From assembly GCF_001750105.1 (NCBI RefSeq), contig NZ_CP014143.1, positions 2,223,001-2,287,000 on the forward strand: a DNA stretch of 64,000 nucleotides. The letters run 5' to 3'. The notes under the pieces were generated by a model. The model was given only the letters and a program-made list of their open reading frames with translations, was not told the DNA's origin and ran no database searches. Both the position numbers and the translations under genes were made by a program. Shown in pieces: positions 5,053 to 43,943 of the stretch; within the stretch, counting starts at the first letter, position 1; the number at the start of each line of letters is the position of its first letter. Source of the stretch: Microbulbifer aggregans (lineage in GTDB: Bacteria; Pseudomonadota; Gammaproteobacteria; Pseudomonadales; Cellvibrionaceae).

Positions 5053-6693
5053 ATGAATTCCTCCGACATTCAGGTACCGGGATACACTATTCACTCCGCT
5101 ATCGGCCATGGTGGCATGGCATCGGTATTCCTCGCTACCCAGGAGTCACTGAACCGCAAAGTGGCCATCAAGGTGTTGCGCAATCGCGATGAAACCGGGG
5201 TGGGGGAGCGGTTCATTAACGAGGCGCGTTATATCGCCAGCCTCAACAGTCCCCACGTCATCACCATTTACGACATCTCGACACTGGAGAATGGCGACTG
5301 CTACATCGCGATGGAGTTTATTGCCTGTGGTGACCTGACAGAGAATTTTGAGAACGTTTCCGGCGTGGAGGCTGCACTCGAAGTTATCAGGCAGGTGGCG
5401 CTGGGACTGGTGGTAGTACACGACAGCGGCATCATTCACAGGGATGTAAAGCCAAAAAACATCCTGTTCCGCAAGGATGGTACGGCGGTGCTGACAGATT
5501 TCGGCATCGCCAAGGAGATCGATAACGCCTCAGATTTGACCCAGGCCGGATTCAGCCTGGGCAGCCCCTCCTACAGCAGCCCGGAGCAGGCGCAGTGTCA
5601 TCCCATCGATCTGACCACCGATATCTACAGCCTGGGCGTCGTGCTGCTGGAGTTACTACTCGGTTACAACCCCTTCAAAGGCGACAGCCATACCGGCACC
5701 GCTCTGAATCATATTCAATTGCCAGTTCCCACACTGCCTGAAGAGTTCGATCACCTGACACCGCTGGTCCAGCGGATGCTGGCGAAAAGCCCGGAGGAAC
5801 GCTACCCGTCCTGTCGGGAACTGCTTGCCGACATAGAGCGAATACTGGAAGCGGACGACGGTGCGCATCGTGCTGAGCCTGCAACGCTTTTCCCTCTTGC
5901 GCCGTTTCGTCGATTTCACCTGCCCCGGATACGGCGCTTACCTAGCTGGCCCGAATTAAAGTTTCGGCGGCCATGGTTTCGTTCATCGCTGTGGGCTTTC
6001 CCGGCAATCTCTACAAAGAACTTAAGAGGCGGCTTGGCTGCAATGGCTGGCAGCGTGGTGATTGCGGCTGTTTATTTCGGCGCTTTTTACCAGACTGAAA
6101 CCGAGCGGGAGATCGAGCACTTGCTGCACCGGGCAGAGCAGAGCATGGAGGCCGGCCGCTATATGGCGCCCATCGCTGACAATGCCCATGAGCTCTACCG
6201 CCAGGTCCTGAAGCTGGAAAAGACCAACCTCAAAGCCATTTGGGGGGTGAAGACTGCGGAGCAAAAGCAAGTGGAGGCCTACCTGGTGCAAGCCGCACAA
6301 GCCCTGGGGGAGAGGCGCCTACAGCGGCCAGATGGAGACAATGCACTCCATTACTACCGCCAAGCCCTCGCTATCGATGCCAAAAATGCTCGGGCACGCA
6401 CTGGGATCAGGGATGTGATACAGGAATACATCCGGTTGGCGCGTACCGAGATGAGCGAGAGTGATTACAGTGAGGCCAACTACTACGTGGATAGCGGACT
6501 GAATATTGCCCCCAATAATGCACTGCTGCTTTCACTCAGGGACGAACTGGAGAGAAGGCAGGAGCAGGTCCTGGTGCGGCAGCGGGAACAGCCGCAGCGA
6601 CGGCCTGCGAAGACACGGGAAGAAACACCCACGGTGAGAACCTATATCCGCAGTGCACTCGACAAGTTGCGAGACAAGTTAGGTGGTAACTGA
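5053..6693 (+). CDS. Membrane-anchored Ser/Thr protein kinase with TPR-like C-terminal domain
   Basis: A 546-aa Hanks-type kinase. The N-terminal kinase domain (about residues 8-275) has the Gly-rich loop IGHGGMASVF, the ATP-binding Lys40 in VAIKVL, the catalytic loop HRDVKPKN (129-136), the Mg-binding D149 in DFGIAK, and the SPSYSSPEQ activation segment. A proline/arginine-rich linker leads to one transmembrane helix at about 327-346. About 200 residues follow that look like tetratricopeptide-type helical repeats (ALHYYRQALAIDAKNARAR; ANYYVDSGLNIAPNNALLL), predicted periplasmic. The layout suggests outside sensing and cytoplasmic phosphorylation. No cognate phosphatase or FHA gene is adjacent, so substrates are unknown. 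Confidence 0.9.
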   Translation: MNSSDIQVPGYTIHSAIGHGGMASVFLATQESLNRKVAIKVLRNRDETGVGERFINEARYIASLNSPHVITIYDISTLENGDCYIAMEFIACGDLTENFENVSGVEAALEVIRQVALGLVVVHDSGIIHRDVKPKNILFRKDGTAVLTDFGIAKEIDNASDLTQAGFSLGSPSYSSPEQAQCHPIDLTTDIYSLGVVLLELLLGYNPFKGDSHTGTALNHIQLPVPTLPEEFDHLTPLVQRMLAKSPEERYPSCRELLADIERILEADDGAHRAEPATLFPLAPFRRFHLPRIRRLPSWPELKFRRPWFRSSLWAFPAISTKNLRGGLAAMAGSVVIAAVYFGAFYQTETEREIEHLLHRAEQSMEAGRYMAPIADNAHELYRQVLKLEKTNLKAIWGVKTAEQKQVEAYLVQAAQALGERRLQRPDGDNALHYYRQALAIDAKNARARTGIRDVIQEYIRLARTEMSESDYSEANYYVDSGLNIAPNNALLLSLRDELERRQEQVLVRQREQPQRRPAKTREETPTVRTYIRSALDKLRDKLGGN

Positions 6694-6819: not shown

Positions 6820-7872
6820 CTAGTTAGCGATGGCCCCGAGCCCTCCGTAAAGCTGCGATTGTTCTCGGATCAGGTTTGGTGAGGCTGCCAGGCGGTCTAT
6901 CGGGCTCTGCACACCCTTTTCACCGCGGTTTACCACATGTGTATAGATTTCCGTGGTGCTGATATCAGCGTGGCCTAGTAACTCCTGGATCGTCCTCAGG
7001 TCATAGCCTGCCTCCAGCAGATGCGTGGCAAAGCTATGCCGAAATGCGTGGGCGCGAGCGGGCTTATGGATCCCAGCTGCCCTCACAGCCCGGCGAATCT
7101 GCTTTGCGAGGGCGGTTGGGTGTAAATGATGCCGACGCACAACGCCCGTACGTGGGCAGGGACCGACCCGGGATGCTGGGAAAAGGAATTGCCAGGCAGT
7201 CTCGCGGGAGGCGCTGGGGTATTTGCGGGCCAGAGCGTCCGGCAGATAAACCTCACCATAGCCCTCTGCTATATCCTGGGCATGCAGAAGCGCTACACGC
7301 TCGATCTGTCGCTTCAGGTCTGGCACGACTCCCTGGGGCAGCATGGTCGTCCTGTCTTTATTGCCCTTGCCGGAGCGCACGAAGATATTGCTGCTGGCAA
7401 AATCGATATCCTTAACCCGCAGAGATAGCAGCTCCGCAGAGCGCAAGCCCGAGCCGTACAGCAATTGGACACGCAACCGCCCGACACCATTGAGCTGAGA
7501 AAGGATGGCGGCAATCTCGTCACGGCTATAAACCACCGGGAGGCGCCGCGGGCGCTTCGCCTCAGTAAAGGCCAGGCCGTCTAACGGTTTTTCCAGAAAA
7601 CGGCCATACAAATAAACCATTGCATTGAGCACGATCCGTTGCGTCCCCACCGAGCAGTCGCGGTCTTCCGCGAGATGGGTGAGAAAATGCTCGACCTCCC
7701 GAATACCCATCTCATCGGGGTGCCGTTTACCGTGAAAAAGAATAAAGCGCCTGATCCAATGTATATAAGTGCGCTCAGTGGTATATGCCAACCCCGAGCC
7801 ACGCATATGTTGACGCAGTTTGTCTAAAAAACGTACAGGTTTCGTGGGGAGTCTTTGTCTGATGTCATCCAT
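6820..7872 (-). CDS. intI: Integron integrase (tyrosine recombinase)
   Basis: It catalyses attC x attI and attC x attC recombination, acting on the folded bottom strand of attC. Numbering from the ATG at 7872 (350 aa), the catalytic residues are R144 (GSGLRSAEL), H275 and R278 (HAFRHSFATH), H301 (LLGHADIS) and Y310 (TEIYTHV). The integron-specific insertion before the second catalytic box is present at about 207-240 (GEVYLPDALARKYPSASRE). The longest frame begins at 7914, but that ATG lies upstream of the predicted transcription start and its first codons overlap the LexA box. The internal ATG at 7872, preceded by GTGAG, also fits family N-termini (FLDKLRQHMR...TERTYIHWIRRFI) better. The gene looks intact and likely functional. 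Confidence 0.95.
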   Translation of the reverse strand: MDDIRQRLPTKPVRFLDKLRQHMRGSGLAYTTERTYIHWIRRFILFHGKRHPDEMGIREVEHFLTHLAEDRDCSVGTQRIVLNAMVYLYGRFLEKPLDGLAFTEAKRPRRLPVVYSRDEIAAILSQLNGVGRLRVQLLYGSGLRSAELLSLRVKDIDFASSNIFVRSGKGNKDRTTMLPQGVVPDLKRQIERVALLHAQDIAEGYGEVYLPDALARKYPSASRETAWQFLFPASRVGPCPRTGVVRRHHLHPTALAKQIRRAVRAAGIHKPARAHAFRHSFATHLLEAGYDLRTIQELLGHADISTTEIYTHVVNRGEKGVQSPIDRLAASPNLIREQSQLYGGLGAIAN

Positions 7873-7886
7873 AACGACACTCACGT

Positions 7887-7906
7887 AACTGTTTTTATAT
7901 ACAGTA
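7887..7906 (-). promoter_or_regulatory. LexA-binding (SOS) box of intI
   Basis: The plus strand reads CTGT (7889-7892), eight A/T bases, ACAG (7901-7904): a perfect CTGT-N8-ACAG SOS box with A/T core. It covers the -10 element and expected start of intI transcription. LexA repression of integron integrases is established in Vibrio and class 1 integrons, so SOS-controlled cassette shuffling is the expected behaviour here. Confidence 0.88.
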
Positions 7907-7929
7907 GTTGCCATTGCCTAGGCCGTCAA
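7901..7929 (-). promoter_or_regulatory. Sigma-70 promoter of intI
   Basis: On the minus strand TTGACG (-35, 7929-7924) is followed after exactly 17 nt by TACTGT (-10, 7906-7901), which is part of the LexA box. Transcription would start near 7894, downstream of the ATG at 7914. This supports translation from 7872. Confidence 0.65.
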
Positions 7930-8181
7930 TGTCTAGAACAGAAGCCTATGGCTTGTGTTCACCGGATCGGATAGGCTAACTAACTGTTTTAAAGGGGTTT
8001 GGAATGAGTGAGCGAAGCCTGTTAGAAGCGGAGAACACAAGTTCATGGCTTCTTTTTGTGGTGGCCTACTTTTGGTGAGACTTCAAGGCTTTGATCTTAA
8101 AAGACTTTTCTAAAATGAATTGAAAAGCGCCTGGGAACAATAGGCCTTTGCAACAAAAGCCCTAGGCGTATGAATAAAACT
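7930..8181. other. attI-side leader region
   Basis: About 250 nt of AT-rich, gene-free DNA between the integrase promoter and the first cassette, where the rest of attI and the cassette promoter (Pc) are expected. An imperfect inverted repeat is visible: AGAAGCC..GGCTTGTGTTC near 7939-7960 against the reverse complement of GAACACAAG..GGCTTCTT near 8030-8054. I could not choose a convincing Pc. Confidence 0.5.
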
Positions 8182-8188
8182 GTTATGC
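8182..8188 (+). other. attI x cassette 1 recombination core (G^TTATGC)
   Basis: GTTATGC at 8182-8188 lies 20 nt before the first cassette gene. It is the reverse complement of the left core GCATAAC of that cassette's own attC (8768-8774). The same complementarity holds across the array, so the crossover is placed between G8182 and T8183. Another GTTAG at about 8014 does not match the attC and was not chosen. Confidence 0.8.
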
Positions 8189-8207
8189 TTCATTCAGAGA
8201 AAACAAC

Positions 8208-8765
8208 ATGAAAAGAATAATCTCAATAACTTTCACCATTTTGGCTGTTTCTGGCTGTAAAACCACGTCCGTAAAAAATGATGTAGATACAGCATTCCAA
8301 ATAGCACACTTGGAATACTTAGGGAAAAAACTTTACGATGCTGTCCTTTCGGAAGATGGAAGCTCGCCCTACACAAGCAGAGAGCAAGATCTTTTAGAAA
8401 TGTCTAAAGATCTTGTGTGTGAAGGAAAGTACAAGGCCGTATCTGTAGTAGATGAAAAGTTTGAAACTGAAAATATATATCTGGTACTAAGTCCAGAGAA
8501 GGACTCTGGTGTTCAATTTGGGCGTCACCTGAAGTTTCGGTTCAGGTTAGGCACAAATGATATTGTAGATGTATCTCCATCTACAAAAACCTGTTTATTG
8601 GTCCCTGCTGAGGGAGATAGCATTCCCTTCTCTACACACCTGGTTTCTAACGTGCCAACTGAATTCCATGTGTTTTTGAGTCTTTACCACGAAAAACCAA
8701 TTTATGTCAGCACTTCTACCGGCCTCTGGAGTGTAGAAGCGGGTAAGGCCGCCTTGGTAAAGTAA
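8208..8765 (+). CDS. Cassette 1: hypothetical lipoprotein
   Basis: A 185-aa product not recognised as a known family. It has a lipoprotein signal peptide (MKRIISITFTILAVSGC, lipobox VSGC with Cys17), so the mature protein is probably anchored in the envelope. It contains a Cys-containing central region (LVCEGKY) and a beta-rich C-terminal half. As the cassette next to attI it is the best placed for expression. Codon use is AT-rich compared with the flanking chromosome, as for the whole array. Confidence 0.75.
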   Translation: MKRIISITFTILAVSGCKTTSVKNDVDTAFQIAHLEYLGKKLYDAVLSEDGSSPYTSREQDLLEMSKDLVCEGKYKAVSVVDEKFETENIYLVLSPEKDSGVQFGRHLKFRFRLGTNDIVDVSPSTKTCLLVPAEGDSIPFSTHLVSNVPTEFHVFLSLYHEKPIYVSTSTGLWSVEAGKAALVK

Positions 8766-8767
8766 AA

Positions 8768-8885
8768 GCATAACAATGCGCTGCAGGCCGACGTCTAACT
8801 TTTTGCACTTTATGCGCGGTCGCTACGCTCCTATTGTCGCGCATAAAGCGCACAAAGTTAGCCGCGCCTGAGCGCGGCGTTAGGC
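8768..8885 (+). repeat. attC site 1
   Basis: 118 bp. Left core GCATAAC, right core GTTAGGC. Long central arms (TGCACTTTATGCGCG against CGCGCATAAAGCGCAC) fold into the usual hairpin. Confidence 0.9.
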
Positions 8886-8911
8886 ATACAGGAAAAATCG
8901 AGCGTAATTAC

Positions 8912-9307
8912 ATGTTGTATACAGAAGCATTTGCCAGATACAAAGCAAAATTGAAAAATGTGAATTGGTCCGTGTCCGCAGAAAACTCGGACGGCGAGCT
9001 AGTTATTAGCCTTTGGAAGCATAGATTTACAAAGCCAGAAGGCAATACCATCAAGTACTTTGACTTTGTCACAAGATGGAAAGGACCAGGAAGTAACGAG
9101 TTAAAAGCTAAGTTGCAAGAGGCACATGCAAATAAACAAGTTATTCGTCCTGTTATTGCAAGAACGAGTGATGTAAATGCGGTAGAAGCTGGTGTAGATG
9201 CTAGCACACTCAAAAATGAATTCTTCGTTCGTGAAGATTGGTTCGGCACGCTAACAAATTGGGACGGTGATAACTTCGAAATTACCTTCGTGCGTCGTAG
9301 TGCCTAA
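8912..9307 (+). CDS. Cassette 2: hypothetical protein
   Basis: 131 aa. The ATG at 8912 is chosen because a longer frame would begin inside attC 1. The product is soluble with no signal peptide, and contains an SLWKHRF segment and an acidic C-terminal LTNWDGDNFEITFVRR. This resembles, from memory, small accessory proteins or domains found near HNH-type nucleases, but no catalytic motif is visible, so function is left open. The stop codon lies inside the left core of attC 2, as is usual in compact cassettes. Confidence 0.75.
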   Translation: MLYTEAFARYKAKLKNVNWSVSAENSDGELVISLWKHRFTKPEGNTIKYFDFVTRWKGPGSNELKAKLQEAHANKQVIRPVIARTSDVNAVEAGVDASTLKNEFFVREDWFGTLTNWDGDNFEITFVRRSA

Positions 9308-9421
9308 CAAACAGCGGCAGAGCGACAGTCAACGCTACGCACCTTTTGTATTACTCGCTGGCGCTCAAACATTAACACAAAAGATGCTCCGCGCTGGCTG
9401 CGCCTGCGCTGGGCGTTAGGT
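9302..9421 (+). repeat. attC site 2
   Basis: 120 bp. Left core GCCTAAC matches this cassette's start TTAGGC; right core GTTAGGT. Confidence 0.88.
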
Positions 9422-9428
9422 TTTGCCC

Positions 9429-9782
9429 ATGAACGTCCTGATCATCGCAATATCTGTATTTCTATATGTGCTTTTCGGTGTAATTTTTGGGTTTGCACTG
9501 AGTTCGCATAATGATGTATTGCTTGGGCGTAGACCAAACACAAAAAATAGGCTTGTTCTGTTTCTTGCCAGGCCGACGCAAAATATTAGAGGTATCGAAA
9601 GAGCAATTTTTGTAGTTGGTATGCTACTTTGGGTTCCTCTACTTGTAGGTATCATTGCAACACCTATAATTTTGGCGGCGAAGTATGCCAGTGAAATAGA
9701 AAAGGTGGTTTTCCTATTGCTCGTGCCTTGTGTTCTTATCGGCAAATTGTATGGTTCGTACAGGTGGCGTAAGCTCGTATGA
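9429..9782 (+). CDS. Cassette 3: hypothetical three-helix membrane protein
   Basis: 117 aa, family not recognised. Three hydrophobic stretches are visible at about residues 2-24, 60-85 and 93-112, separated by a basic loop (GRRPNTKNR). The ATG lies only 8 nt after the recombination core, leaving almost no leader, so initiation may be leaderless or rely on read-through from upstream cassettes. A TTG two codons earlier is in frame but within the core. Confidence 0.7.
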   Translation: MNVLIIAISVFLYVLFGVIFGFALSSHNDVLLGRRPNTKNRLVLFLARPTQNIRGIERAIFVVGMLLWVPLLVGIIATPIILAAKYASEIEKVVFLLLVPCVLIGKLYGSYRWRKLV

Positions 9783-9900
9783 ACCTAACAAGGCGCTGCA
9801 TCCGACAGCTTACTTTATGCACCTTTTGCGCGGTCGCTGTCGCTCATATTTTCGCGCAAAATGCGCATAAAGTAAGCTGCGGCTGAGTGCGACGTTAGGT
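9783..9900 (+). repeat. attC site 3
   Basis: 118 bp. Left core ACCTAAC matches the cassette start TTAGGT; right core GTTAGGT. Arms CAGCTTACTTTATGC and GCATAAAGTAAGCTG are nearly perfect complements. Confidence 0.92.
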
Positions 9901-9904
9901 GATC

Positions 9905-10237
9905 ATGAGCACAGAAGGAATAGCCTTAGTCAGCTACATCTTATTTTTAATATCCAGTATCGCTGGATTGGTATTTGGATTTGCTGGAGTGTTCTACTTC
10001 TTTGAAGCGAATCGGAACATGAAGGAAAATCGAAAATGGGGTGCGGTTTTTCCATTTGCTGCATTTATGCCCTCTGTGTTCACGGAGCTAGGTAACAAAA
10101 AAAGAGTAAATGCTCTTAGGTGTATCGGTTGCTTTCTGCTGTGTGTAGCAGTTGCAGGCGGAGCGGGCGCATGGAATCATCATTTATCATGTTGTGGGAG
10201 TAGGGCGCAAAATCCCGTGCAGGCGTCTATCACCTAA
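9905..10237 (+). CDS. Cassette 4: hypothetical membrane protein
   Basis: 110 aa, family not recognised. A long hydrophobic segment at about residues 7-35 (probably one or two helices) and another at about 80-96 with a Cys pair (CIGCFLLC) flank a short basic loop. The ATG at 9905 is used rather than the in-frame GTG at 9899, which lies in the attC core. The stop codon is inside the next attC. Confidence 0.68.
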   Translation: MSTEGIALVSYILFLISSIAGLVFGFAGVFYFFEANRNMKENRKWGAVFPFAAFMPSVFTELGNKKRVNALRCIGCFLLCVAVAGGAGAWNHHLSCCGSRAQNPVQASIT

Positions 10238-10375
10238 CAAACACAGGCAGTGAAGCTCCGGCCCTTCGGGCCTCCGCGGGACGTCTAACCTTATGCACGT
10301 TTCGCGCGGTCGCTACGCTCCAATTTTCGCGCAAAACGCGCATAAGGTAAGCCGCCCCTGCTGTGGGCGTTATAA
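10232..10375 (+). repeat. attC site 4
   Basis: 144 bp. Left core ACCTAAC, right core GTTATAA. The outer arms CACAGGCAG / CTGCTGTG show an unpaired G on one side, of the kind used as an extrahelical base by integron integrases. Confidence 0.92.
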
Positions 10376-10378
10376 GCC

Positions 10379-10732
10379 ATGAAAAAGATACTGATGATAG
10401 CCGTATGCTTCCTCATAAGTTGTACCGCATCAATTTCCCAAGTACAGGAATTTAGTGGCTCTGTTAATCTTGGACCAGAGGCCATGTATTTTATCGAATT
10501 TTGCTCCGAGGAAAGGTGGTGGATTTCTGAATCTTCATTCACCGCTGAAGGATGGGAAAAAATCGAGCAGGCATTGAATGCGCAGCCTCGATGTAGCTTA
10601 GAAACTATGCCATGTGCACATCAATCAGTTAGTGTATTGGTCTCAGGAGTAATCTCAGAGCCAGGGCAGTACGGACACATGGAACAGTATCGAAGGAAAA
10701 TCAATCTTGTCGCAATTAAACAAAGTCAGTAG
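10379..10732 (+). CDS. Cassette 5: hypothetical lipoprotein
   Basis: 117 aa with a lipoprotein signal peptide (KKILMIAVCFLISC; lipobox LISC, Cys15). The mature part has a WWISESSFTAEGWEKIEQAL segment and three further Cys residues. No family recognised. The ATG is 3 nt after the cassette's start core. Confidence 0.7.
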   Translation: MKKILMIAVCFLISCTASISQVQEFSGSVNLGPEAMYFIEFCSEERWWISESSFTAEGWEKIEQALNAQPRCSLETMPCAHQSVSVLVSGVISEPGQYGHMEQYRRKINLVAIKQSQ

Positions 10733-10744
10733 TCAGCGCAAGGC

Positions 10745-10840
10745 TTATAACAATCACAGGCAGTTTGCGCCGGCCCCTGACGGGGCCTCTGCGGGACAGC
10801 CTACGCTACGCTTCGGCTGCCCCTGCTGTGGGCGTTAAAT
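10745..10840 (+). repeat. attC site 5
   Basis: 96 bp. Left core TTATAAC matches the cassette start TTATAA exactly; right core GTTAAAT. It is shorter than the 144-bp class because the inner TGCGC-rich arms are missing. Confidence 0.88.
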
Positions 10841-10854
10841 GCCCATAAAAAATA

Positions 10855-11214
10855 ATGTGCAACTGTAAATTACAACTAGAACTAGTCGATATCAGTAACT
10901 CGCACACGGATTTCAAGTCCAAACTAGATCTGCTTGAAACTGGTGATTGGGTATTTCTTATGCAGTGCCCAGAGTGCGAGCAACTTTGGAAAGTTGATGA
11001 GTGGGACAAGTACCAGCAATCCTATGCCGTCAAAATTTCTGCTAAAGAGAGCTGGGAAGAATTCGATAGCACAGCTCTAATAAAAGCAAAAATCATAGAA
11101 AATCACGACGGCTTAACCAGCGCAGAGTGCTTATGGTCGGGCTGTACCGTTAAGCAAGTAAAAGGTAGCGCGTACTGTGTCAATCATCTGTGGAGTACGG
11201 GAGCCCGTGCCTGA
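10855..11214 (+). CDS. Cassette 6: hypothetical zinc-ribbon protein (copy 1)
   Basis: 119 aa. Cysteines are arranged as two probable zinc sites: C2/C4 with C38-x2-C41 (CPEC), and C92-x4-C97 with C108-x2-H111. No signal peptide or membrane segment, so a small cytoplasmic metal-binding protein is likely. Function unknown; zinc binding is inferred from spacing only. An identical second copy lies at 11954-12313 in cassette 8. Confidence 0.75.
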   Translation: MCNCKLQLELVDISNSHTDFKSKLDLLETGDWVFLMQCPECEQLWKVDEWDKYQQSYAVKISAKESWEEFDSTALIKAKIIENHDGLTSAECLWSGCTVKQVKGSAYCVNHLWSTGARA

Positions 11215-11217
11215 AGC

Positions 11218-11361
11218 GTTTAACAAACGCAGGCAGCTTGCTCCAGCCCTTCGGGCCTCCGCGGGACGCCCAACGCTATGCACATTTTGTGCGGGTCGCT
11301 GCGCTCCCATATTCGCACAGAATGTGCATAGCATTGGTCGCCCCTGCTGCGGGCGTTAAGG
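11218..11361 (+). repeat. attC site 6
   Basis: 144 bp. Left core GTTTAAC, right core GTTAAGG. The left core differs by its first base from the exact complement of the cassette start TTAAAT. Identical, apart from the junction bases, to attC 8. Confidence 0.92.
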
Positions 11362-11363
11362 CA

Positions 11364-11795
11364 ATGAAAACTCAGCAACTGTGGAACTACATTACATTTT
11401 CGAGCTTGGCTATAGTCTTGCTAATTAGTGCGTACTTTCTACATCTGGAGAGAGACTTCATATCAGGCTATAGAGTTTTCAAAGGCTATATCGTAAATGA
11501 TGAAGAGCTTTCAGGATTTTTCGAGTGTGGTGGGAAAGGAGGTGTTAGTTTCACTGACAAGGGGGAAACTGGTATCTACAAAGAATATTCCGCTCGCAAG
11601 GTGAAACTTCGCGAACCCATCTATGTAGAGGTTGTAGGTCGTATTACTGATGACGGGGGCCCGGGCTGGGGTACAGCTGGAGAGCCGTGGGATCAAAATC
11701 TAGAAATTCGCGAGCTGCAACGAATTAAAAGGTTACTGCCCGTAGCTTGCGGGGCTCGTCCGCCGATAGAGATAGAAACAACATATGAGGGTTAG
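11364..11795 (+). CDS. Cassette 7: hypothetical membrane-anchored protein
   Basis: 143 aa from the ATG at 11364; earlier starts lie inside attC 6. One N-terminal transmembrane helix (about residues 7-27) is followed by a soluble, beta-rich region with a Gly-rich loop (FFECGGKGGVSF, DDGGPGWGTAGEPW). Probably tethered to the inner membrane with an exported C-terminal domain. Family not recognised. Confidence 0.7.
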   Translation: MKTQQLWNYITFSSLAIVLLISAYFLHLERDFISGYRVFKGYIVNDEELSGFFECGGKGGVSFTDKGETGIYKEYSARKVKLREPIYVEVVGRITDDGGPGWGTAGEPWDQNLEIRELQRIKRLLPVACGARPPIEIETTYEG

Positions 11796-11939
11796 CCTTA
11801 ACAAGGCCAGGCAATTTGCTCCGGGCCTTTGGCCCTCCGCGGGACAGCTTACCTTGTGCACATTTTGCGCGGGTCGCTGCGCGCCCATTTTCGCGCAAAA
11901 TGCGCACAAGGTAAGCTGCCCCTGCCGGCCGCGTTAAAT
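11796..11939 (+). repeat. attC site 7
   Basis: 144 bp. Left core CCTTAAC matches the start TTAAGG exactly; right core GTTAAAT. The arms pair along their whole length (GGCCAGGCA / TGCCGGCC outside; CAGCTTACCTTGTGCA / TGCGCACAAGGTAAGCTG inside). Confidence 0.93.
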
Positions 11940-12454
11940 GCCCATAAAAAATAATGTGCAACTGTAAATTACAACTAGAACTAGTCGATATCAGTAACTC
12001 GCACACGGATTTCAAGTCCAAACTAGATCTGCTTGAAACTGGTGATTGGGTATTTCTTATGCAGTGCCCAGAGTGCGAGCAACTTTGGAAAGTTGATGAG
12101 TGGGACAAGTACCAGCAATCCTATGCCGTCAAAATTTCTGCTAAAGAGAGCTGGGAAGAATTCGATAGCACAGCTCTAATAAAAGCAAAAATCATAGAAA
12201 ATCACGACGGCTTAACCAGCGCAGAGTGCTTATGGTCGGGCTGTACCGTTAAGCAAGTAAAAGGTAGCGCGTACTGTGTCAATCATCTGTGGAGTACGGG
12301 AGCCCGTGCCTGAAGCGTTTAACAAACGCAGGCAGCTTGCTCCAGCCCTTCGGGCCTCCGCGGGACGCCCAACGCTATGCACATTTTGTGCGGGTCGCTG
12401 CGCTCCCATATTCGCACAGAATGTGCATAGCATTGGTCGCCCCTGCTGCGGGCG
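11934..12454 (+). repeat. Cassette 8: exact duplicate of cassette 6 (521 bp)
   Basis: From crossover to crossover this cassette and the one at 10835-11355 are both 521 bp and, by eye, identical in coding region and attC. The offset is constant at 1099 bp. Confidence 0.9.
11954..12313 (+). CDS. Cassette 8: hypothetical zinc-ribbon protein (copy 2)
   Basis: Identical in protein sequence to the cassette 6 product (119 aa; Cys pairs at 2/4, 38/41, 92/97 and the C108/H111 pair). Only upstream neighbours differ, so expression may differ between copies. See the duplicate-cassette entry. Confidence 0.75.
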   Translation: MCNCKLQLELVDISNSHTDFKSKLDLLETGDWVFLMQCPECEQLWKVDEWDKYQQSYAVKISAKESWEEFDSTALIKAKIIENHDGLTSAECLWSGCTVKQVKGSAYCVNHLWSTGARA

Positions 12455-12460
12455 TTATGG
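12317..12460 (+). repeat. attC site 8
   Basis: 144 bp. Left core GTTTAAC, right core GTTATGG. A copy of attC 6 with only the downstream junction changed. Confidence 0.92.
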
Positions 12461-12486
12461 TTAAGGCCAGGCTCATAGAGAGAATA

Positions 12487-12930
12487 ATGAAAAATATACT
12501 GCTGGGGATTTTTGCTGCCTTTGCAAATCAGAGCTTTGCATGTGAAGAGTCTGACGCGGACATTTTTGTGCGAGATGTAAAGGTATATCAGCATCAGGGG
12601 CAAACTTGTACACCCTTTCAGATACTTCTCAATGAATTTATAGAGAATAAAAATCGATATATTGATTCTGCGTACTTAAATATTATTGATGAAAACAATA
12701 AAGTAGTAGCTGAAGTCGCCCCAGAGTTGGAGCGCCCAGGCTTCGGTAATGTGCTTCTATCTATGTGCGTCTCAAAGGAATACATAGAAAATTCTCGGGT
12801 ATTTCTAAATGTAAAGCCGCGGCCATCGGTAAAATTAAACGGCGATGGGGTGATAACTACCGGAAGTGCTTTGTGTCTCGATACACGTGAGTTGGTACTT
12901 TCCAGGCTCGTAAAAGACGGTAGTGAGTAG
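12487..12930 (+). CDS. Cassette 9: hypothetical secreted protein
   Basis: 147 aa from the ATG at 12487, which has an AGAGAG ribosome site 3-4 nt upstream. A signal peptide is clear (KNILLGIFAAFANQSFA, cleavage before CEES). The mature protein has four Cys residues, suggesting disulphides, and a beta-rich pattern (SAYLNIIDENNKVVAEVAP). Probably periplasmic. Family not recognised. Confidence 0.72.
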   Translation: MKNILLGIFAAFANQSFACEESDADIFVRDVKVYQHQGQTCTPFQILLNEFIENKNRYIDSAYLNIIDENNKVVAEVAPELERPGFGNVLLSMCVSKEYIENSRVFLNVKPRPSVKLNGDGVITTGSALCLDTRELVLSRLVKDGSE

Positions 12931-12948
12931 GTGCTTCGTGCCAATTAA

Positions 12949-13092
12949 CCATAACAATCACAGGCAGTTTGCTACAGCCCTCCGGGCTTCCGCGGGACGT
13001 CTTACTTTGTGCGCCTTTTACGCGGGTCGCTTCGCTCCCAGTTTTGCGCAAAATGCGCACAAAGTAAGCCGCCCCTGCTGTGGGCGTTATGT
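12949..13092 (+). repeat. attC site 9
   Basis: 144 bp. Left core CCATAAC matches the start TTATGG exactly; right core GTTATGT. Confidence 0.92.
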
Positions 13093-13096
13093 GTAA

Positions 13097-13384
13097 ATGA
13101 GCATGGAAGAGATTTTCGAAAAATTGACTGAATACACGCTGGCTTTGAATGAAGGGCTGGAAACTACTAATCAAGCCAACGAGCGGCCGCTACTAACAAA
13201 GCATCTTGCGGCGGCAGCAGAAATGTTTGCGCTTCTTCACCAGTCAGGTAATGCAGAGTCAATCCATGATCTTGTTGCCACAGAGATTCGTGGTCATGGC
13301 TGGTCTTTTATTTCTGGCACCGCAGGTGAAAAAATCGCAAATAAATGGGTGGCATTCACAGATTCAATGGGTATGCCGCAGTGA
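13097..13384 (+). CDS. Cassette 10: hypothetical small helical protein
   Basis: 95 aa, soluble and mostly helical by composition (IFEKLTEYTLALNEGL; LLTKHLAAAAEMFALLHQSG). No signal peptide, membrane segment or known motif. The ATG follows the cassette core by 4 nt. Confidence 0.65.
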   Translation: MSMEEIFEKLTEYTLALNEGLETTNQANERPLLTKHLAAAAEMFALLHQSGNAESIHDLVATEIRGHGWSFISGTAGEKIANKWVAFTDSMGMPQ

Positions 13385-13387
13385 AAC

Positions 13388-13487
13388 ACATAACAAGTTG
13401 CAGCACTAAAACCCCAGCTGCGCTGGGGTCGGACCTCCGTTTCGGCGCTTCGCGCCTACACTGCGGCCCGTGTGCAAGGCGTTAGCC
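13388..13487 (+). repeat. attC site 10
   Basis: 100 bp. Left core ACATAAC matches the start TTATGT exactly; right core GTTAGCC. Its interior (CCCCAGCTGCGCTGGGG hairpin, CGGCGCTTCGCGCC) is unlike the 144-bp class, so this cassette has a different origin. Confidence 0.88.
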
Positions 13488-13500
13488 TTATAGGAGAATC

Positions 13501-14118
13501 ATGACATTTTCAGATTTGATGAGTATAGCTACGGCAGTAATCGGGTCTATTGGAGGTAGTGCACTCATTGTAATTGGCGCTAGCACTTGGCTTGGTAGGG
13601 TTTGGGCAGGACGCATTCTTGAACAAGATAGGCATAAATATGCTTCTGAACTTGAGCATATTAAGAATCAATTGGAGTCGGAGAGATCTAGGAACCAATT
13701 TATTTTCTCGTTGTACTTCGAGGGCCAGTTCAGAATTTACAATGATTTATGGTCGTCTCTAGTGGAGCTCCAGCATTGTGTAAAAAGCCTTTGGGAAAGC
13801 GCTTCTACCGCCAATGTACAGAAACTATCTAAGTCACTAAAAGAAGCAAAGCTCCAAGTTCAAAAAAGTGCACTTCTTATTGAGCCAGATCATTACATTG
13901 AAATAATTAATGCTCTAGAAGATTTTGAGAACTACCGAGTGGGAAAAGAAAAACTGGTCTCAATTAGGCGTGTATCTGACATTGAGCATTGGCAAATTGA
14001 CCAAATAATACAAGATAACCTATGCAATAAAGATCGAATATCTCAGTTCTCTGAGGAAATCTTAAACAAGATGCGAGGCAGGCTGCGACTGGCCGAGCCT
14101 CAACAAGCAGCAGGCTAA
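13501..14118 (+). CDS. Cassette 11: hypothetical membrane-anchored coiled-coil protein
   Basis: 205 aa with a good AGGAG ribosome site. One N-terminal transmembrane segment (about residues 9-33, Gly/Ser-rich) is followed by a charged helical region (RHKYASELEHIKNQLESERSR) likely to be coiled coil. A helical domain with EILNKMRGRLRL at its end completes the protein. Probably an inner-membrane protein with a cytoplasmic helical domain. Function unknown. Confidence 0.72.
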   Translation: MTFSDLMSIATAVIGSIGGSALIVIGASTWLGRVWAGRILEQDRHKYASELEHIKNQLESERSRNQFIFSLYFEGQFRIYNDLWSSLVELQHCVKSLWESASTANVQKLSKSLKEAKLQVQKSALLIEPDHYIEIINALEDFENYRVGKEKLVSIRRVSDIEHWQIDQIIQDNLCNKDRISQFSEEILNKMRGRLRLAEPQQAAG

Positions 14119-14231
14119 CAATTCGCTGCTGAGGGACAGCCTACTTTATGCACATTTTACGCGGCTCACTTCGCTCGTATTCTCGCATAAAATGTGCATA
14201 AAGCAGGCTGCCCCAGAGCTAGGCGTTAAAT
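14113..14231 (+). repeat. attC site 11
   Basis: 119 bp. Left core GGCTAAC matches the start TTAGCC exactly; right core GTTAAAT. Confidence 0.9.
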
Positions 14232-14550
14232 GTATATGGATAGATACGCGGTTTCTGCTCGATTAAGTCTGACCTCAATATTCGCAATGATTGCGTTTGT
14301 TGTGATATTGAACTTTTTACCGGGCGAACTATTTAAATACGCGCTGATGGACTTGTTTCTTGAAGTTTCAGGTATTCTTTTGACTACCAGTTTCACTCTA
14401 CCAGGTCTTTATCTCTGGGTTACGGGGTTTAAAAGGTATGACGAAGCTTTGGGCGGGTTCGGGCCAAAGTTGGTACTGTATTTCGTTTTTACAATACCTT
14501 ATGCGATCTACCTACAGTACCAGTATGAAAGCAGTGCAAAAAACATTTAA
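14230..14550 (+). CDS. Cassette 12: hypothetical three-helix membrane protein
   Basis: 106 aa. Hydrophobic segments at about residues 12-32, 40-65 and 82-100. The first ATG overlaps the last bases of the attC core (GTTAAAT-G) and a second in-frame ATG is 6 nt on, so the start codon itself depends on the recombination junction. Family not recognised. Confidence 0.65.
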   Translation: MYMDRYAVSARLSLTSIFAMIAFVVILNFLPGELFKYALMDLFLEVSGILLTTSFTLPGLYLWVTGFKRYDEALGGFGPKLVLYFVFTIPYAIYLQYQYESSAKNI

Positions 14551-14601
14551 CAAGGCAATGCAGCGGACTGCTGCGCAGCCGCGCTGATTGCGGCGTTAGC
14601 A
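14545..14601 (+). repeat. attC site 12 (short type)
   Basis: 57 bp, near the minimum known for attC. Left core ATTTAAC matches the start TTAAAT exactly; right core GTTAGCA. Arms GCAGCGGACTGCTGCGCAGCCGC form the short hairpin. Confidence 0.85.
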
Positions 14602-14615
14602 ATCAGGAGATAATA

Positions 14616-14993
14616 GTGATCGCATCAAAAAAAGAATATGAGACGGCATTATTGGGTGTTCGTGATAGCGGGCGACTTAGGGCTACAAAATTTTTGGAGA
14701 TGATTCGCGCTCAGTACAAGAGCCCAGGCCACGCGATTACATCAACGAATCTGGCTATTGCTGCGGGCTATGAAAACTTTAACGCTGCAAACCTTCAATA
14801 TGGCACTTTCGCAAAAGAAATAGCCTCGGGAATAAATTTTGTTCCTCCAAAATCAAAAAATGGAGATCCAAATTGGTATTTGACCATTTCAACGGTTAAT
14901 GCTTCATCCGATAGTACTGTCGATGGCCATTATGAGTTTGTAATGCGTCCAGAGTTCAAAGAGGCCCTGGAGTCCATGGGGTGGGTCAAGTAA
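14616..14993 (+). CDS. Cassette 13: hypothetical protein with HNH-associated N-terminal-type domain
   Basis: 125 aa, GTG start with an AGGAG ribosome site 6 nt upstream. The segment from about residue 35 (SPGHAITSTNLAIAAGYENF, then NLQYGTFAKEI) resembles the domain that often precedes HNH nuclease domains in McrA-like restriction proteins. No HNH motif follows: the protein ends at VMRPEFKEALESMGWVK. The resemblance is from memory and needs a profile search. Confidence 0.65.
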   Translation: MIASKKEYETALLGVRDSGRLRATKFLEMIRAQYKSPGHAITSTNLAIAAGYENFNAANLQYGTFAKEIASGINFVPPKSKNGDPNWYLTISTVNASSDSTVDGHYEFVMRPEFKEALESMGWVK

Positions 14994-14994
14994 T

Positions 14995-15138
14995 TGCTAA
15001 CAAGGCCAGGCAGTTTGCTCCGGGCCTTCGGCCCTCCGCGGAACAGCTTACTTTGTGCACCTTTTGTGCGGGTCGCTGCGCTCCCATTTTCGCACAAAAG
15101 GTGCATAGCATTGGTCGCCCCTGCTGCGGGCGTTATGG
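14995..15138 (+). repeat. attC site 13 (hybrid)
   Basis: 144 bp. Left core TGCTAAC matches the start TTAGCA exactly; right core GTTATGG. The left half resembles attC 7 and the right half resembles attC 6/8, so the outer arms do not pair although the inner arms do. Confidence 0.9.
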
Positions 15139-15156
15139 CAATTAAGAATCTAGAAT

Positions 15157-15627
15157 ATGAATTATTTAGCTACATGTGTATTGCTCATTTTTTCAACATC
15201 AATCCATGCTCAATCAATCGAGAAAATAGAAGAAAAATTACTAAAATTATATGAAGCTCAAGCCAGAAAGGTTCTTCTAGCAGAGCGAAGTGATCTTAAG
15301 AATGAAGATTTGGTATTAGTATCTTCTACATTTCAGTATAAGAATTCTGATTCAGGACCTATTACCAATAAATTTCTTACTTTTGTAGACAAAACAACCG
15401 AAGAGATTAAAGTTGAAGAGCTTCCCAAAATTAATGAAGAAAGCTCTATTCGTGAAAGGCTGAAAGTGCTGCGTGCGATGTCTGCGGCCACGAAATCCGA
15501 CAAAGATTTTGATGGCAATTACAATGAGTATGTTTACAAATCCTATGTGGTTTTTCTTGACATCGCAGAGGAACTAAAGCCAATTGCGGAAAGTAGTCAT
15601 AGCCAGCAGCGTCGTGTCAAACCATAA
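15157..15627 (+). CDS. Cassette 14: hypothetical secreted protein
   Basis: 156 aa. A signal peptide is visible (NYLATCVLLIFSTSIHAQS, cleavage near residue 18), then a charged Lys/Glu-rich helical region and a beta region (LVLVSSTFQYKNSDSG). Predicted periplasmic. Family not recognised. The stop codon lies inside attC 14. Confidence 0.7.
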   Translation: MNYLATCVLLIFSTSIHAQSIEKIEEKLLKLYEAQARKVLLAERSDLKNEDLVLVSSTFQYKNSDSGPITNKFLTFVDKTTEEIKVEELPKINEESSIRERLKVLRAMSAATKSDKDFDGNYNEYVYKSYVVFLDIAEELKPIAESSHSQQRRVKP

Positions 15628-15702
15628 CAAGCACCGGCACAATCGCGCACTCCGTGCGCTGGACTCGCAACAAGTTGCTCGCCTGTGCGGCGGGCGTTAT
15701 GC
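15622..15702 (+). repeat. attC site 14
   Basis: 81 bp. Left core CCATAAC matches the start TTATGG exactly; right core GTTATGC. Confidence 0.87.
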
Positions 15703-15716
15703 ATCGGGAGATAAAG

Positions 15717-15995
15717 ATGAAGTGCCCAAGTTGCTCAAATAAAATTGGCCTGTTCTCGAAGGAAGCGAACTCACTGGCAAAAAGTAAATCATGCCCAGAA
15801 TGTGGCGCGGAGTTCGCGATTGGGTTCAACTGGAAGCTAGTAGCAATACTGTTTCTTCCTTTCTGGGCCGTGAAGGTGTTCGCGGATTCAGTATTCAGCG
15901 CAAGCGGTGCATTCGACCTTGCGATAGATTTTCTTCTGTTCCTTGGTTTTATGCTGCTAGTTATTGAAGCGAAGCCTCACGAAACTGATGCATAA
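15717..15995 (+). CDS. Cassette 15: hypothetical zinc-ribbon membrane protein
   Basis: 92 aa from the ATG at 15717 (GGGAG ribosome site). An N-terminal zinc ribbon with two CxxC knuckles (KCPSC...SCPECGAEF) is followed by two transmembrane segments at about 39-58 and 63-84. This layout is common among small membrane proteins of unknown role. The stop codon is in the left core of attC 15. Confidence 0.73.
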   Translation: MKCPSCSNKIGLFSKEANSLAKSKSCPECGAEFAIGFNWKLVAILFLPFWAVKVFADSVFSASGAFDLAIDFLLFLGFMLLVIEAKPHETDA

Positions 15996-16049
15996 CAAGG
16001 CCGGGCAATATACTCCGGGACTTCGGCCCTCCGTGGGGCGGCGTTAGGG
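15990..16049 (+). repeat. attC site 15 (short, possibly deleted)
   Basis: 60 bp. Left core GCATAAC matches the start TTATGC exactly; right core GTTAGGG. It keeps only the outer left part of a 144-bp-type site (AAGGCCGGGCAATATACTCC, CTTCGGCCCTCCG) and appears to have lost the inner arms. Confidence 0.82.
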
Positions 16050-16080
16050 ATTTCGGGATTTTGAGCAAAAGGAGATTGGT

Positions 16081-16452
16081 ATGGCGAGTATGATTTATAA
16101 GACTCCAAAAGGGCGTATTACAAGAAAGGTCTTTTTATATTTTGGTGCGTTTCCGTTCTTTGGGATCATGTTAATTTCAATTTTTTTGGCCGCCGCTGTA
16201 GGATTGAGCGACAAAGAAATTTCCAGAATGTTGGTTTTCATGGTCTTGGTGTTTATCTATCCATGGGCGATGGTTTGCGTTAAGAGATTCCATGACGTTG
16301 GTTTTCCTGGCTGGGCCTTCGCGGCAATGCTGGTCCCATACTTAAACACTATCACGCTAATTTTCCTTGCTTGTTATCCAGGAGACAAAGGAGATAATAA
16401 ATACGGCCCAGATCCAAAGAGGTCAAGGCTCGGAAAACCAGAAGAGGCATGA
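16081..16452 (+). CDS. Cassette 16: DUF805 family membrane protein
   Basis: 123 aa. The DUF805 signature is visible: N-terminal GRITRKVF, then KRFHDVGFPGWAF and C-terminal CYPGDKGDNKYGPDP. Three or four transmembrane helices. DUF805 proteins are widespread small inner-membrane proteins without assigned function. The ATG has an AAGGAG ribosome site. This is one of the few cassette genes with a clear family. Confidence 0.88.
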   Translation: MASMIYKTPKGRITRKVFLYFGAFPFFGIMLISIFLAAAVGLSDKEISRMLVFMVLVFIYPWAMVCVKRFHDVGFPGWAFAAMLVPYLNTITLIFLACYPGDKGDNKYGPDPKRSRLGKPEEA

Positions 16453-16453
16453 T

Positions 16454-16597
16454 CCCTAACAATCACAGGCAGTACGCTACGGCCCCTCGGGTCTCCGCGG
16501 GACGTCTTACCTTGTGCACCTTTTGCGCAGGTCGCTACGCTCCCAGTTTTGCGCAAAAGGTGCACAGGGTAATCCGCCCCTGCTGTGGGCGTTATTT
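16454..16597 (+). repeat. attC site 16
   Basis: 144 bp. Left core CCCTAAC matches the start TTAGGG exactly; right core GTTATTT. Confidence 0.92.
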
Positions 16598-16630
16598 ACT
16601 ATCAGAATCACACAGTTGGAGGGATTCAAT

Positions 16631-16954
16631 ATGTTTTTGATAGATGGATTGATAGGGATCGCTTTTATAGTTGCTGTTCTACACTTGATCCTAACCATCA
16701 GCGGAATATCTAAACGCGCCGGAAAGCCAGCAGAGCACTATTTAGATATATCTTTGGCATGTCTGCTATTAATTCCTCTTATAACTGGCTACGCCTCGAC
16801 ATCAGAAAGAATCAGTGTGCTTTCTGCGAATATATTTATAACAATTTCTACAGCATCAGTGACAATCGGCGTCTTCCTACTTTCAAAAGGGTTAAGGAGG
16901 GCAACTTTCGAGTCGAGAAAGAGGGAAGCTACGGAGCGAGCGAGTGGCCAATAA
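16631..16954 (+). CDS. Cassette 17: hypothetical membrane protein
   Basis: 107 aa from the ATG at 16631, which has a GGAGGG ribosome site. Three hydrophobic segments (about 3-25, 40-55, 65-86) are followed by a very basic tail (RRATFESRKREATER). Family not recognised. Confidence 0.7.
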   Translation: MFLIDGLIGIAFIVAVLHLILTISGISKRAGKPAEHYLDISLACLLLIPLITGYASTSERISVLSANIFITISTASVTIGVFLLSKGLRRATFESRKREATERASGQ

Positions 16955-17037
16955 CAAGCTAATGAACTTGGCGTGCGAAGTCCGCGCGCCGGACGGTCTA
17001 CGCTGCGCTTCCGTTGCCGATTACTAGAGCGTTATGT
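16949..17037 (+). repeat. attC site 17
   Basis: 89 bp. Left core CAATAAC (one base off the expected AAATAAC); right core GTTATGT. Its interior differs from the 144-bp class. Confidence 0.82.
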
Positions 17038-17121
17038 ATCTTTTAGGTTTCAAGACCTGCTTTCATGATGGTGATATTGAAAGCAGGAGTTCATCCTTCA
17101 CCAATTACATTTGAGAATACT

Positions 17122-17328
17122 ATGAGCACAGGTACCGTAAAGTGGTTTGATTCTGACAAAGGCTATGGCTTTATCACTCCAGATGACGGCAGTAAAGATC
17201 TTTTCGTTCATCATTCGGAGATTCAGAGCGGTGGTGGTTACGCAAGCCTAAATGACGGACAGAAGGTCGAGTACGTAGTGGGGCAAGGTCAAAAAGGGCC
17301 ATGTGCAACAAAGGTTGTGCCTCAATAG
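17122..17328 (+). CDS. Cassette 18: cold-shock domain protein
   Basis: 68 aa, single CSD beta-barrel that binds single-stranded nucleic acid. The RNP1-type motif KGYGFIT and RNP2-type motif LFVHHSEI are intact, and length and N-terminus ([17 protein letters not shown]) are those of CspA-family proteins. Translation from 17122 is chosen because upstream residues are not part of the fold. The gene has about 85 nt of its own leader after the core, more than most cassettes, so it may carry its own promoter or cold-responsive leader. Confidence 0.92.
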
Positions 17329-17336
17329 AGAGTGGC

Positions 17337-17417
17337 ACATAACAAGCGTAAGCAGTTCACGCCGGCCCCTGGCGGGGCCTCTGTGGGACGCCTTACGCTT
17401 TGCTTCGGGCGTTATCT
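17337..17417 (+). repeat. attC site 18
   Basis: 81 bp. Left core ACATAAC matches the start TTATGT exactly; right core GTTATCT. Confidence 0.87.
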
Positions 17418-17426
17418 TTCGTTCCA

Positions 17427-17822
17427 ATGAGCCTACCCAGTTTGCCATTATTTTATATAACCGCGTTGATTCTGGCTCTTCTATTGGCAGGAGTCGGATT
17501 GGCCGGAATTAAATGGATCAAAAATTACAAGGTTATTTCCTGCGTAATTTCCAGCATTGGGGTAGCCCTCCTCGCGATCCTGGTGCTGGTCTCAATCATG
17601 TATAGCTCCAACGCGTTCTCTTCGCTTAGAGCCTCGGAATTGGTCCTGATTGGACTGCCGTTACTGGTATACGCCGTTGCCCTCCTGTTCCTCGCAAGAC
17701 TGGCAAACACTTCACTGGCCCTGACATGTCTTTTCGGCATGGGCGGCTTACTGGCGCTTTATCATCTGGGTGGTGCCGTTCTGATGTTATCTATATGTAG
17801 CTTTGATTCTCGAGGTTGCTGA
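17427..17822 (+). CDS. Cassette 19: hypothetical four-helix membrane protein
   Basis: 131 aa, almost wholly hydrophobic, with helices at about 7-29, 38-58, 70-90 and 98-120. The ATG at 17427 is 10 nt after the attC core; upstream in-frame codons lie inside attC 18. Base composition is closer to the chromosome than in other cassettes. Family not recognised. Confidence 0.65.
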   Translation: MSLPSLPLFYITALILALLLAGVGLAGIKWIKNYKVISCVISSIGVALLAILVLVSIMYSSNAFSSLRASELVLIGLPLLVYAVALLFLARLANTSLALTCLFGMGGLLALYHLGGAVLMLSICSFDSRGC

Positions 17823-17874
17823 GGTGCGAGCCAGTTCAGCTTATCCCAGCTATTGTTCGTGCTGATCCCAAATT

Positions 17875-17907
17875 GTCTAACTATTGACTGTCGCCCCTGC
17901 GTTAGGG
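17875..17907 (+). repeat. Degenerate attC remnant closing the array
   Basis: GTCTAAC (17875-17881) and GCCCCTGC-GTTAGGG (to 17907) look like the two ends of an attC with the middle lost. The left core does not match the last cassette's start (TTATCT, expected AGATAAC). The cassette may therefore be fixed, or this end was built by deletion. Confidence 0.5.

Positions 17908-43833: not shown

Positions 43834-43943
<110 letters not shown>

Follow-up and report, generated by a model that had tools for sequence, protein, structure and literature searches.

A chromosomal integron of Microbulbifer aggregans in a probable network of cassette arrays with integrase-free attI sites

INTRODUCTION

Sedentary chromosomal integrons are known from Vibrio, Xanthomonas and Pseudomonas. 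Array A, the element considered here, is an integron of Microbulbifer aggregans in a 64,000-nt window of the chromosome (RefSeq assembly GCF_001750105.1, contig NZ_CP014143.1, positions 2,223,001 to 2,287,000 of the forward strand; "the window" is this whole stretch, and features of array A are given in its coordinates). The genome (G000) is one contig of 3,864,326 bases. Like sedentary chromosomal integrons, array A has an integrase gene (intI) that reads away from the array, an attI site, tandem cassettes mostly without known function, attC sites of similar length and a LexA-type box. Unlike them, it is of moderate size (18 cassettes), contains a 144-bp type of attC with a branched bottom-strand fold and shares exact cassettes with other arrays. 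Complete chromosomal integrons, clusters of attC sites lacking integron integrases (CALINs) and multi-integrase genomes are already known, and array A by itself is an ordinary integron; what we rate as new is the array network with integrase-free platforms. We consider it likely that array A is a working integron in such a network, where at least six arrays draw on one cassette pool and the integrase-less attI sites of arrays C, E and F are served in trans.

Published systems are compared here from excerpts of the papers cited. The nearest published relative that we found is Saccharophagus degradans 2-40, in which a core integron and five satellite clusters have the same 140-bp repeat and some genes are duplicated between clusters (PMC2386152). 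Unlike the arrays described here, most of its satellites are tied to transposase genes, and the section on them describes no attI heads, exact cassette copies or gene such as p133, the companion of array C treated below (PMC2386152). More than one IntI occurs in 22% of IntI-bearing genomes (PMC9024848), with examples in Shewanella (PMC9229058); exact exchange between arrays and integrase-free attI platforms are not described in the excerpts of either paper. The class 1 integrase recombines secondary attI-like sites, giving rise to plasmid inversions (PMC10127599); there, as would be the case here, an integrase acts away from its own attI, but the conserved heads described here carry cassette arrays. 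A Xanthomonas paper treats CALINs as mobilizable in trans (PMC12444791), and the excerpt of a Treponema integron paper (PMC3607928) makes no mention of integrase-less attI. In these partial texts, retrieved with narrow phrases and hence weak evidence of absence, we found no report of a conserved integrase-free attI platform with a companion gene.

Arrays C, D, E and F of M. aggregans resemble CALINs in having two or more attC sites without a neighboring intI. Unlike CALINs, they start at attI-like sites (decayed in D), and array C is fixed behind ubiD in most of the loci read in the genus, together with a conserved p133. As IntegronFinder 2 detects attI of class 1 only (PMC9024848), attI heads of CALINs may go unseen.

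RESULTS AND DISCUSSION

Exact cassette copies between arrays

The chromosome carries at least six attC cassette arrays (A to F), two of which, A and B, carry an integrase. Array B (16 attC) stands beside the second integrase, IntI-B (3466127-3467116, about 1.2 Mb from IntI-A), which is an open frame scoring above the TIGR02249 cut-off; no third integrase above that cut-off was found in the genome. IntI-A and IntI-B fall in two deeply separated clades. Support for the split was full in the set of rows tested; the A side also contains those from other genera, and a long branch was flagged beside the B group.

Cassettes 6 and 8 of array A and cassette 1 of array B (A6, A8 and B1) are identical over 521 bp (521/521). 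B12 and A1 are the same over their entire length; the 707-bp alignment has two mismatches, both just beyond the crossover and within the following cassette. C1 equals A12 (370/370); array C, at about 1.29 Mb, has no integrase. For each of A1, B1 and C1, the attI-proximal cassettes of these arrays, a twin exists within one of the other arrays, and all three copy clusters of this genome include an attI-proximal copy (P = 0.003 under random placement). At the depth searched, exact sharing within the genome is limited to arrays A, B and C. Cassettes 3 and 13 of array B are near-identical to each other (99.7% over the body).

For comparison, arrays of related species were available, with one genome per species. 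None of them shared a cassette of array A at ≥90% identity (over 80% of the shorter body), nor did these arrays hold the same genes in fixed order, the pattern that a preliminary description of the window had named as telling against its reading. The best between-genome cassette pair reached 95.03% (441 compared of 446 cassettes). Within genomes, copies of ≥99% formed 13 clusters in 6 genomes, including the three of G000, among 13 genomes with at least two arrays, each having two attC sites or more (a hand count in which some arrays are uncertain). Some array sizes in the all-against-all comparison (for example L027, L028, L043, L044, L053, L056 and L057) are unreliable, because the script's chains were cut by contig ends or lacked a credible first site; these arrays were kept. 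In G008, array A and a C-type array have four cassettes in common at 100%, plus a piece at 98.7%. G021 has two within-genome copies, G018 has one, between B and C, G015 has two, shared by a pair of B-type arrays, and G002 has one at 99.3%.

Shared blocks ended on the right 3 to 5 nt past G^ in 17 of 18 pairs, three of which lie inside one array. Left ends fell exactly at G^TT in five pairs and were blurred in others, in which the attC sites just before the block resemble each other. Such exact copies with G^TT breakpoints point, if indirectly, to integrase-catalyzed attI x attC recombination. Homologous recombination or segmental duplication, instead of an integrase, could also account for the sharing: near-identical attC repeats could pair across arrays, shared blocks are delimited less sharply on the left than on the right, and in G008 A13-A14 and C7-C8 are shared in the same order as a block. 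The site inside that block looks false, so that its two neighboring pieces may be one split cassette; this block is the single exception to the right-end rule, running into the next shared piece. The regularity of the other right ends argues against homologous exchange, as does the scatter of the remaining shared cassettes of G008 (C4, C5 and C6 equal A18, A23 and A6), and we regard it as the least probable of the explanations weighed here.

attI-like heads of arrays without an integrase

Arrays D, E and F were revealed by a covariance-model search of the whole genome. The attI pattern GAATAAAN{0,1}CTGTTA has five matches in 3.86 Mb, four of which stand at the heads of arrays A, C, E and F; the reversed pattern, as a control, has none in the genome. 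The fifth match, at 3032913, was set aside as presumably due to chance; it falls within an open frame that looks RecB-like by eye, and no cassette follows it.

Array E (about 2.65 Mb; head 2652962-2652975, L164) starts at an A-type attI without an integrase. Its core GTTAGTG is complementary at 7/7 positions to the left attC core (R'') of the first cassette, CACTAAC, and its likeness to attI extends beyond the core, by homology to the attI-A region in two separate blocks, one of 36 bp (89%) and one of 26 bp (92%). The gene of its first cassette is HNH endonuclease-like by eye alone. Array D (about 0.42 Mb, 3 attC) has a decayed A-type attI head like that of G002 (28 bp, 96%). Array F (about 977 kb; G000:C1:975117-977480, L240; 3 attC) has the same palindrome-plus-core leader as array C, without p133, so this leader can travel or persist without that gene. 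It sits behind an RND-type permease gene (by eye). The heads of C and F are both 7/7 complementary to their first cassettes and have 39 bp at 95% in common.

Insertion of cassettes at ordinary genomic secondary sites, which has been proposed as a route to CALINs (PMC8618304), could also yield arrays without an integrase; secondary sites of an attI-like kind are described as common in genomes (PMC10127599), and the heads of C and F have just the short core in common with integrase-linked attI. Random secondary sites would not give the pattern found, in which the E and D heads resemble integrase-linked attI over 36 + 26 bp and 28 bp, the C and F heads resemble each other, and the core recurs at the same place behind p133 across the genus (20/21 loci, below). 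We judge off-target insertion very unlikely as the origin of these arrays.

p133 and the array C platform

Array C runs on one strand in the order ubiD, p133 (an unannotated 133-aa open reading frame [ORF]), ATAT-centered palindromes, attI core and cassettes. Relatives of p133 occur in 25 of 48 genomes of the genus, in 10 of 145 genomes sampled from the order (two of the ten in the genus) and in at least 5 of 398 genomes of a phylum sample (profile E ≤ 1e-8, own genome counted, among the best ten candidates per genome). We read 21 genus loci, our own and 20 of the 24 others. In 19 of them ubiD is the gene immediately upstream of p133, and in 20 an attI-like core, 7/7 complementary to the first attC, lies no more than 160 nt from the end of the p133 match. 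At L176, in G019, a core is visible by eye that the script did not match. None of the 21 stretches, which are 1.5 to 18 kb long, was found to hold an integrase. Where p133 is missing behind ubiD (23 genomes, 0.6 to 1.5 kb read), no p133-like sequence was found there; six of these 23 loci have a single attC-like site by script and no core. At one of the 23, L218 in G011, a B-type attI core and two attC sites stand behind ubiD without p133.

Outside the genus, G173, G432, G541 and G453 have p133 with a 7/7 core and 4, 12, 8 and 5 attC sites (by script), respectively, and no integrase in the stretch read. In a set of eight p133 loci read outside the genus, ubiD was not found beside any; of these eight, L197, L198 and L200 have no attI-like head, and L194 to L196 have a core by eye and at most one credible attC. 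p133-like ORFs also adjoin integron integrases in contigs of Chloroflexi and Acidobacteria (L106, L121). A search for IntI in 33 genomes with p133, 25 from the genus and 8 from among the 12 known elsewhere, gave a score above the cut-off in 30; in G073, p133 is present and no integron integrase over the cut-off was found.

Within the genus p133 is under strong purifying selection, with ratios of nonsynonymous to synonymous substitution rates (dN/dS) of 0.04, 0.10, 0.11 and 0.14 in four of six pairs (the other two are synonymous-saturated). Its structure is predicted with confidence (mean predicted local distance difference test [pLDDT] 90.2, predicted template modeling score [pTM] 0.61); it has no Pfam domain, the best match of a PDB profile search was at E = 0.58, and Foldseek returned none at E ≤ 0.001. 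Palindromes between p133 and the core numbered 42, versus 22.9 in 200 shuffles (largest 37), and attI regions beside integrases had no such excess (28 versus 32 for A, 18 versus 20.4 for B). The ATAT-type motif occurs 48 times there, versus 14.9 in shuffles (largest 36), an enrichment that is descriptive because the motif was written after the sequences had been viewed.

That p133 has a role at attI is a guess from its constant position before attI; array F does without it. In a bolder reading, the p133-palindrome-attI-cassette locus would be a distinct integrase-free type of integron, a platform inherited stably and equipped with a dedicated protein, with p133 binding the palindromes and making or regulating attI as a target, and cutting done by integrases encoded elsewhere. 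We hold this to be possible but doubtful.

In our reading, arrays C, E and F are landing platforms that have no integrase and would be served in trans, as CALINs that would still be working and not debris. Decay is the main competing account: arrays C to F would be ordinary CALINs, integrons that lost intI, with heads as remnants and shared cassettes that predate the loss. Degradation has been proposed as an origin of CALINs (PMC9024848), and it would fit the degenerate head of D, the two-block homology of the E head to the attI-A region, the want of common cassettes between D, E, F and A, B, C, and G417, where an integrase directly adjoins p133. Decay does not sit well with C1, first at its core and still identical to A12 over 370 bp, or with the strong purifying selection on p133. 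The C arrays of G000 and G012 share no cassette at ≥90% though their p133 genes are 93% identical, and no credible IntI remnant was found in stretches of 17 to 18 kb around C to F (best E = 0.31). On balance, decay appears to us an unlikely explanation, less so than off-target insertion.

Proposed exchange in trans

Integrases are raised by the SOS response and recombine the folded bottom strand of attC with attI; a single strand is processed, and replication can leave the donor in place. In M. aggregans, SOS induction would most likely raise IntI-A and IntI-B, which would excise or copy cassettes via the folded bottom strand of attC, with attI as the place of insertion. What is new in this proposal is the participation of attI sites that have no integrase beside them, with IntI-A, IntI-B or both presumably recombining at C, E and F. 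Because only one strand would be processed, the donor array could stay intact through replication, and copies would arise. Read-through from ubiD-p133 may express the first cassettes of array C, which is plausible because ubiD, p133 and the cassettes run in one direction.

Several points weigh against exchange in trans as proposed here. The copies could come from outside, from cells of the same species, instead of from a sister array. Arrays D, E and F have no common stretch of ≥170 bp with A, B and C (blastn) and no shared cassette. The bias to first position is weak over all 13 clusters (4/13, P = 0.09) and significant only in G000, and the resemblance of the C and F heads to integrase-linked attI is limited to a core of 10 to 13 nt. 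p133 is kept in G046, where IntI was not found, and in G017, which has an IntI fragment only. In G541, p133 is broken across two frames and the array is still kept; with array F, which lacks the gene, this implies that p133 is dispensable for the formation or persistence of an array. Nor does the array C core always fit the IntI type of its own genome: G021 has one IntI, of A type, yet a B-like core, on account of which we dropped a general rule that platform cores agree in type with the integrase of their genome.

Anatomy of array A

The features of array A and its integrase are as follows (window coordinates, strand, description).

6820-7914, minus: intI-A, integron integrase, open frame of 364 aa (TIGR02249, PF00589 + PF13495); likely true start near 7872
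7889-7904, no strand: LexA-type box CTGTN8ACAG, CTGTTTTTATATACAG, overlapping the annotated intI-A start
8123-8188, plus: attI-A, core G^TTATGC at 8182-8188; leader ..TATGAATAAAACTG kept in relatives; left limit arbitrary
8183-8879, plus: cassette 1, ORF 8208-8765 with a weak lipoprotein signal, attC 8768-8885; identical to B12
8880-9415, plus: cassette 2, ORF 8912-9307, attC 9302-9421
9416-9894, plus: cassette 3, ORF 9429-9782, attC 9783-9900
9895-10369, plus: cassette 4, ORF 9905-10237, attC 10232-10375
10370-10834, plus: cassette 5, ORF 10379-10732, attC 10745-10840
10835-11355, plus: cassette 6, Cys-rich ORF of 119 aa 10855-11214, attC 11218-11361; identical to A8 and B1
11356-11933, plus: cassette 7, ORF 11364-11795, attC 11796-11939
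11934-12454, plus: cassette 8, identical in sequence to cassette 6, attC 12317-12460
12455-13086, plus: cassette 9, ORF 12487-12930, attC 12949-13092
13087-13481, plus: cassette 10, ORF 13103-13384, attC 13388-13487 (missed by the covariance model)
13482-14225, plus: cassette 11, ORF 13501-14118, attC 14113-14231
14226-14595, plus: cassette 12, ORF 14236-14550, attC 14545-14601 (missed by the covariance model); identical to C1
14596-15132, plus: cassette 13, ORF 14616-14993, attC 14995-15138
15133-15696, plus: cassette 14, ORF 15157-15627, attC 15622-15702
15697-16043, plus: cassette 15, zinc-ribbon-like ORF 15717-15995 (matches below cut-off), attC 15990-16049
16044-16591, plus: cassette 16, DUF805 ORF 16081-16452 (PF05656, 78.6 bits), attC 16454-16597
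16592-17031, plus: cassette 17, ORF 16631-16954, attC 16949-17037 (missed by the covariance model)
17032-17411, plus: cassette 18, cold-shock ORF 17122-17328 (PF00313, 96.4 bits), attC 17337-17417
17427-17822, plus: ORF that follows the last attC and for which no attC was found

The preliminary description, which had reported an intact integrase, an identifiable attI junction and 18 readable attC sites, was borne out on all three. IntI-A scores 419.6 bits against TIGR02249 (cut-off 265), as an integron-type tyrosine recombinase, and by eye it has what we take to be the R..K..HxxR..H..Y residues and the IntI-type extra segment. Its nearest named relative is in Microbulbifer marinus (87%). CTGTN8ACAG, which we assume to be the LexA-type consensus, has a single exact match in the 64 kb, and as it appears in 57 of 100 shuffles it is not rare by itself; such a box stands at 22 of 31 IntI starts examined in the genus, IntI-B among them. 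The MDD.. start common to IntI-B, together with the position of the box, suggests that translation of intI-A probably begins near 7872. The attI-A core is complementary to R'' of cassette 1 at 7/7 positions, and the first cassette is joined at G^TT beside intI.

The 18 attC sites, from 8768 to 17417, were identified as R''...R' pairs by eye and DNA folding, and the same 18 were returned by an automatic chain finder (whose over-strict first form gave 1 site, its second form 14/18 and its final form exactly 18). As controls, it returned at most 4 sites in 20 mononucleotide shuffles of the array region, 1 on the opposite strand of the region and 0 to 3 when both strands of four 11.1-kb pieces elsewhere in the window were scanned. 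A covariance model built from 30 attC sites of relatives, none from this genome, recovered 15 of the 18 on the bottom strand (E < 0.01) with no other bottom-strand match in the 64 kb, so the check that the preliminary description had proposed did not fail on most sites; the 10 top-strand matches (E up to 1) were all at the same attC sites. R'' is the exact reverse complement of R' of its own cassette in 15/18 and agrees at 6 of 7 bases in cassettes 6, 8 and 17, much as had been described. In the 144-bp type of attC, 21 of 46 pairs have compensatory change (133 compensated cells versus 39.5 in shuffles, and at most 10 in slid versions), and the stem of the bottom-strand consensus fold branches at its tip and includes an extrahelical base and an unpaired spacer.

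A complete, apparently active integron with 19 cassettes had been claimed. The integron stands, with a count of 18 cassettes and one further ORF (17427-17822) for which neither the chain finder nor the covariance model found an attC; that it is apparently active is supported by the exact copies with G^TT breakpoints inside array A and in two other arrays, and by the lack of cassettes in common at ≥90% with the arrays of related species compared above.

Between groEL and intI-A lies a protein-kinase-like gene (by eye; 5053-6693), a relative of which is near intI in L063 and L073. groEL is close to the integrase in many other relatives; in G001 and G015 (L048, L049) a B-type integrase adjoins groEL, the same chromosomal site with an integrase of the other clade. 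Elsewhere in the window is a bacterial small signal recognition particle RNA gene (43842-43938).

Cassette products

Apart from the integrase, the cold-shock and DUF805 products are the only ones of array A with Pfam matches above cut-off; zinc-ribbon and other matches fell below it, and NCBIfam cold-shock models match the cassette 18 product strongly, yet below their own cut-offs. Of the three types recognized earlier, cold-shock and DUF805 thus hold above cut-off and zinc-ribbon has matches below it, and no other product was recognized, as had been stated. The suggestion that the cassettes form a reservoir of phage-defense candidates found no support: in a PADLOC scan of 18 array A ORFs (E ≤ 0.01), run with p133 as a nineteenth protein and in which families outside PADLOC cannot match, no specific defense family appeared and the sole match was the generic CSD_V (cold-shock protein).

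Significance

If many CALINs keep a working attI and are supplied in trans, the places at which a genome can expose new cassettes would outnumber its integrases, and attI sites outside class 1 would be worth searching for. Exact copies between named arrays would preserve, in nature, the traces of individual integrase events, and p133 is a well-defined new gene for testing. Should the reading of the p133 locus as a platform also be true, many CALINs would be working satellites of a cell-wide cassette economy.

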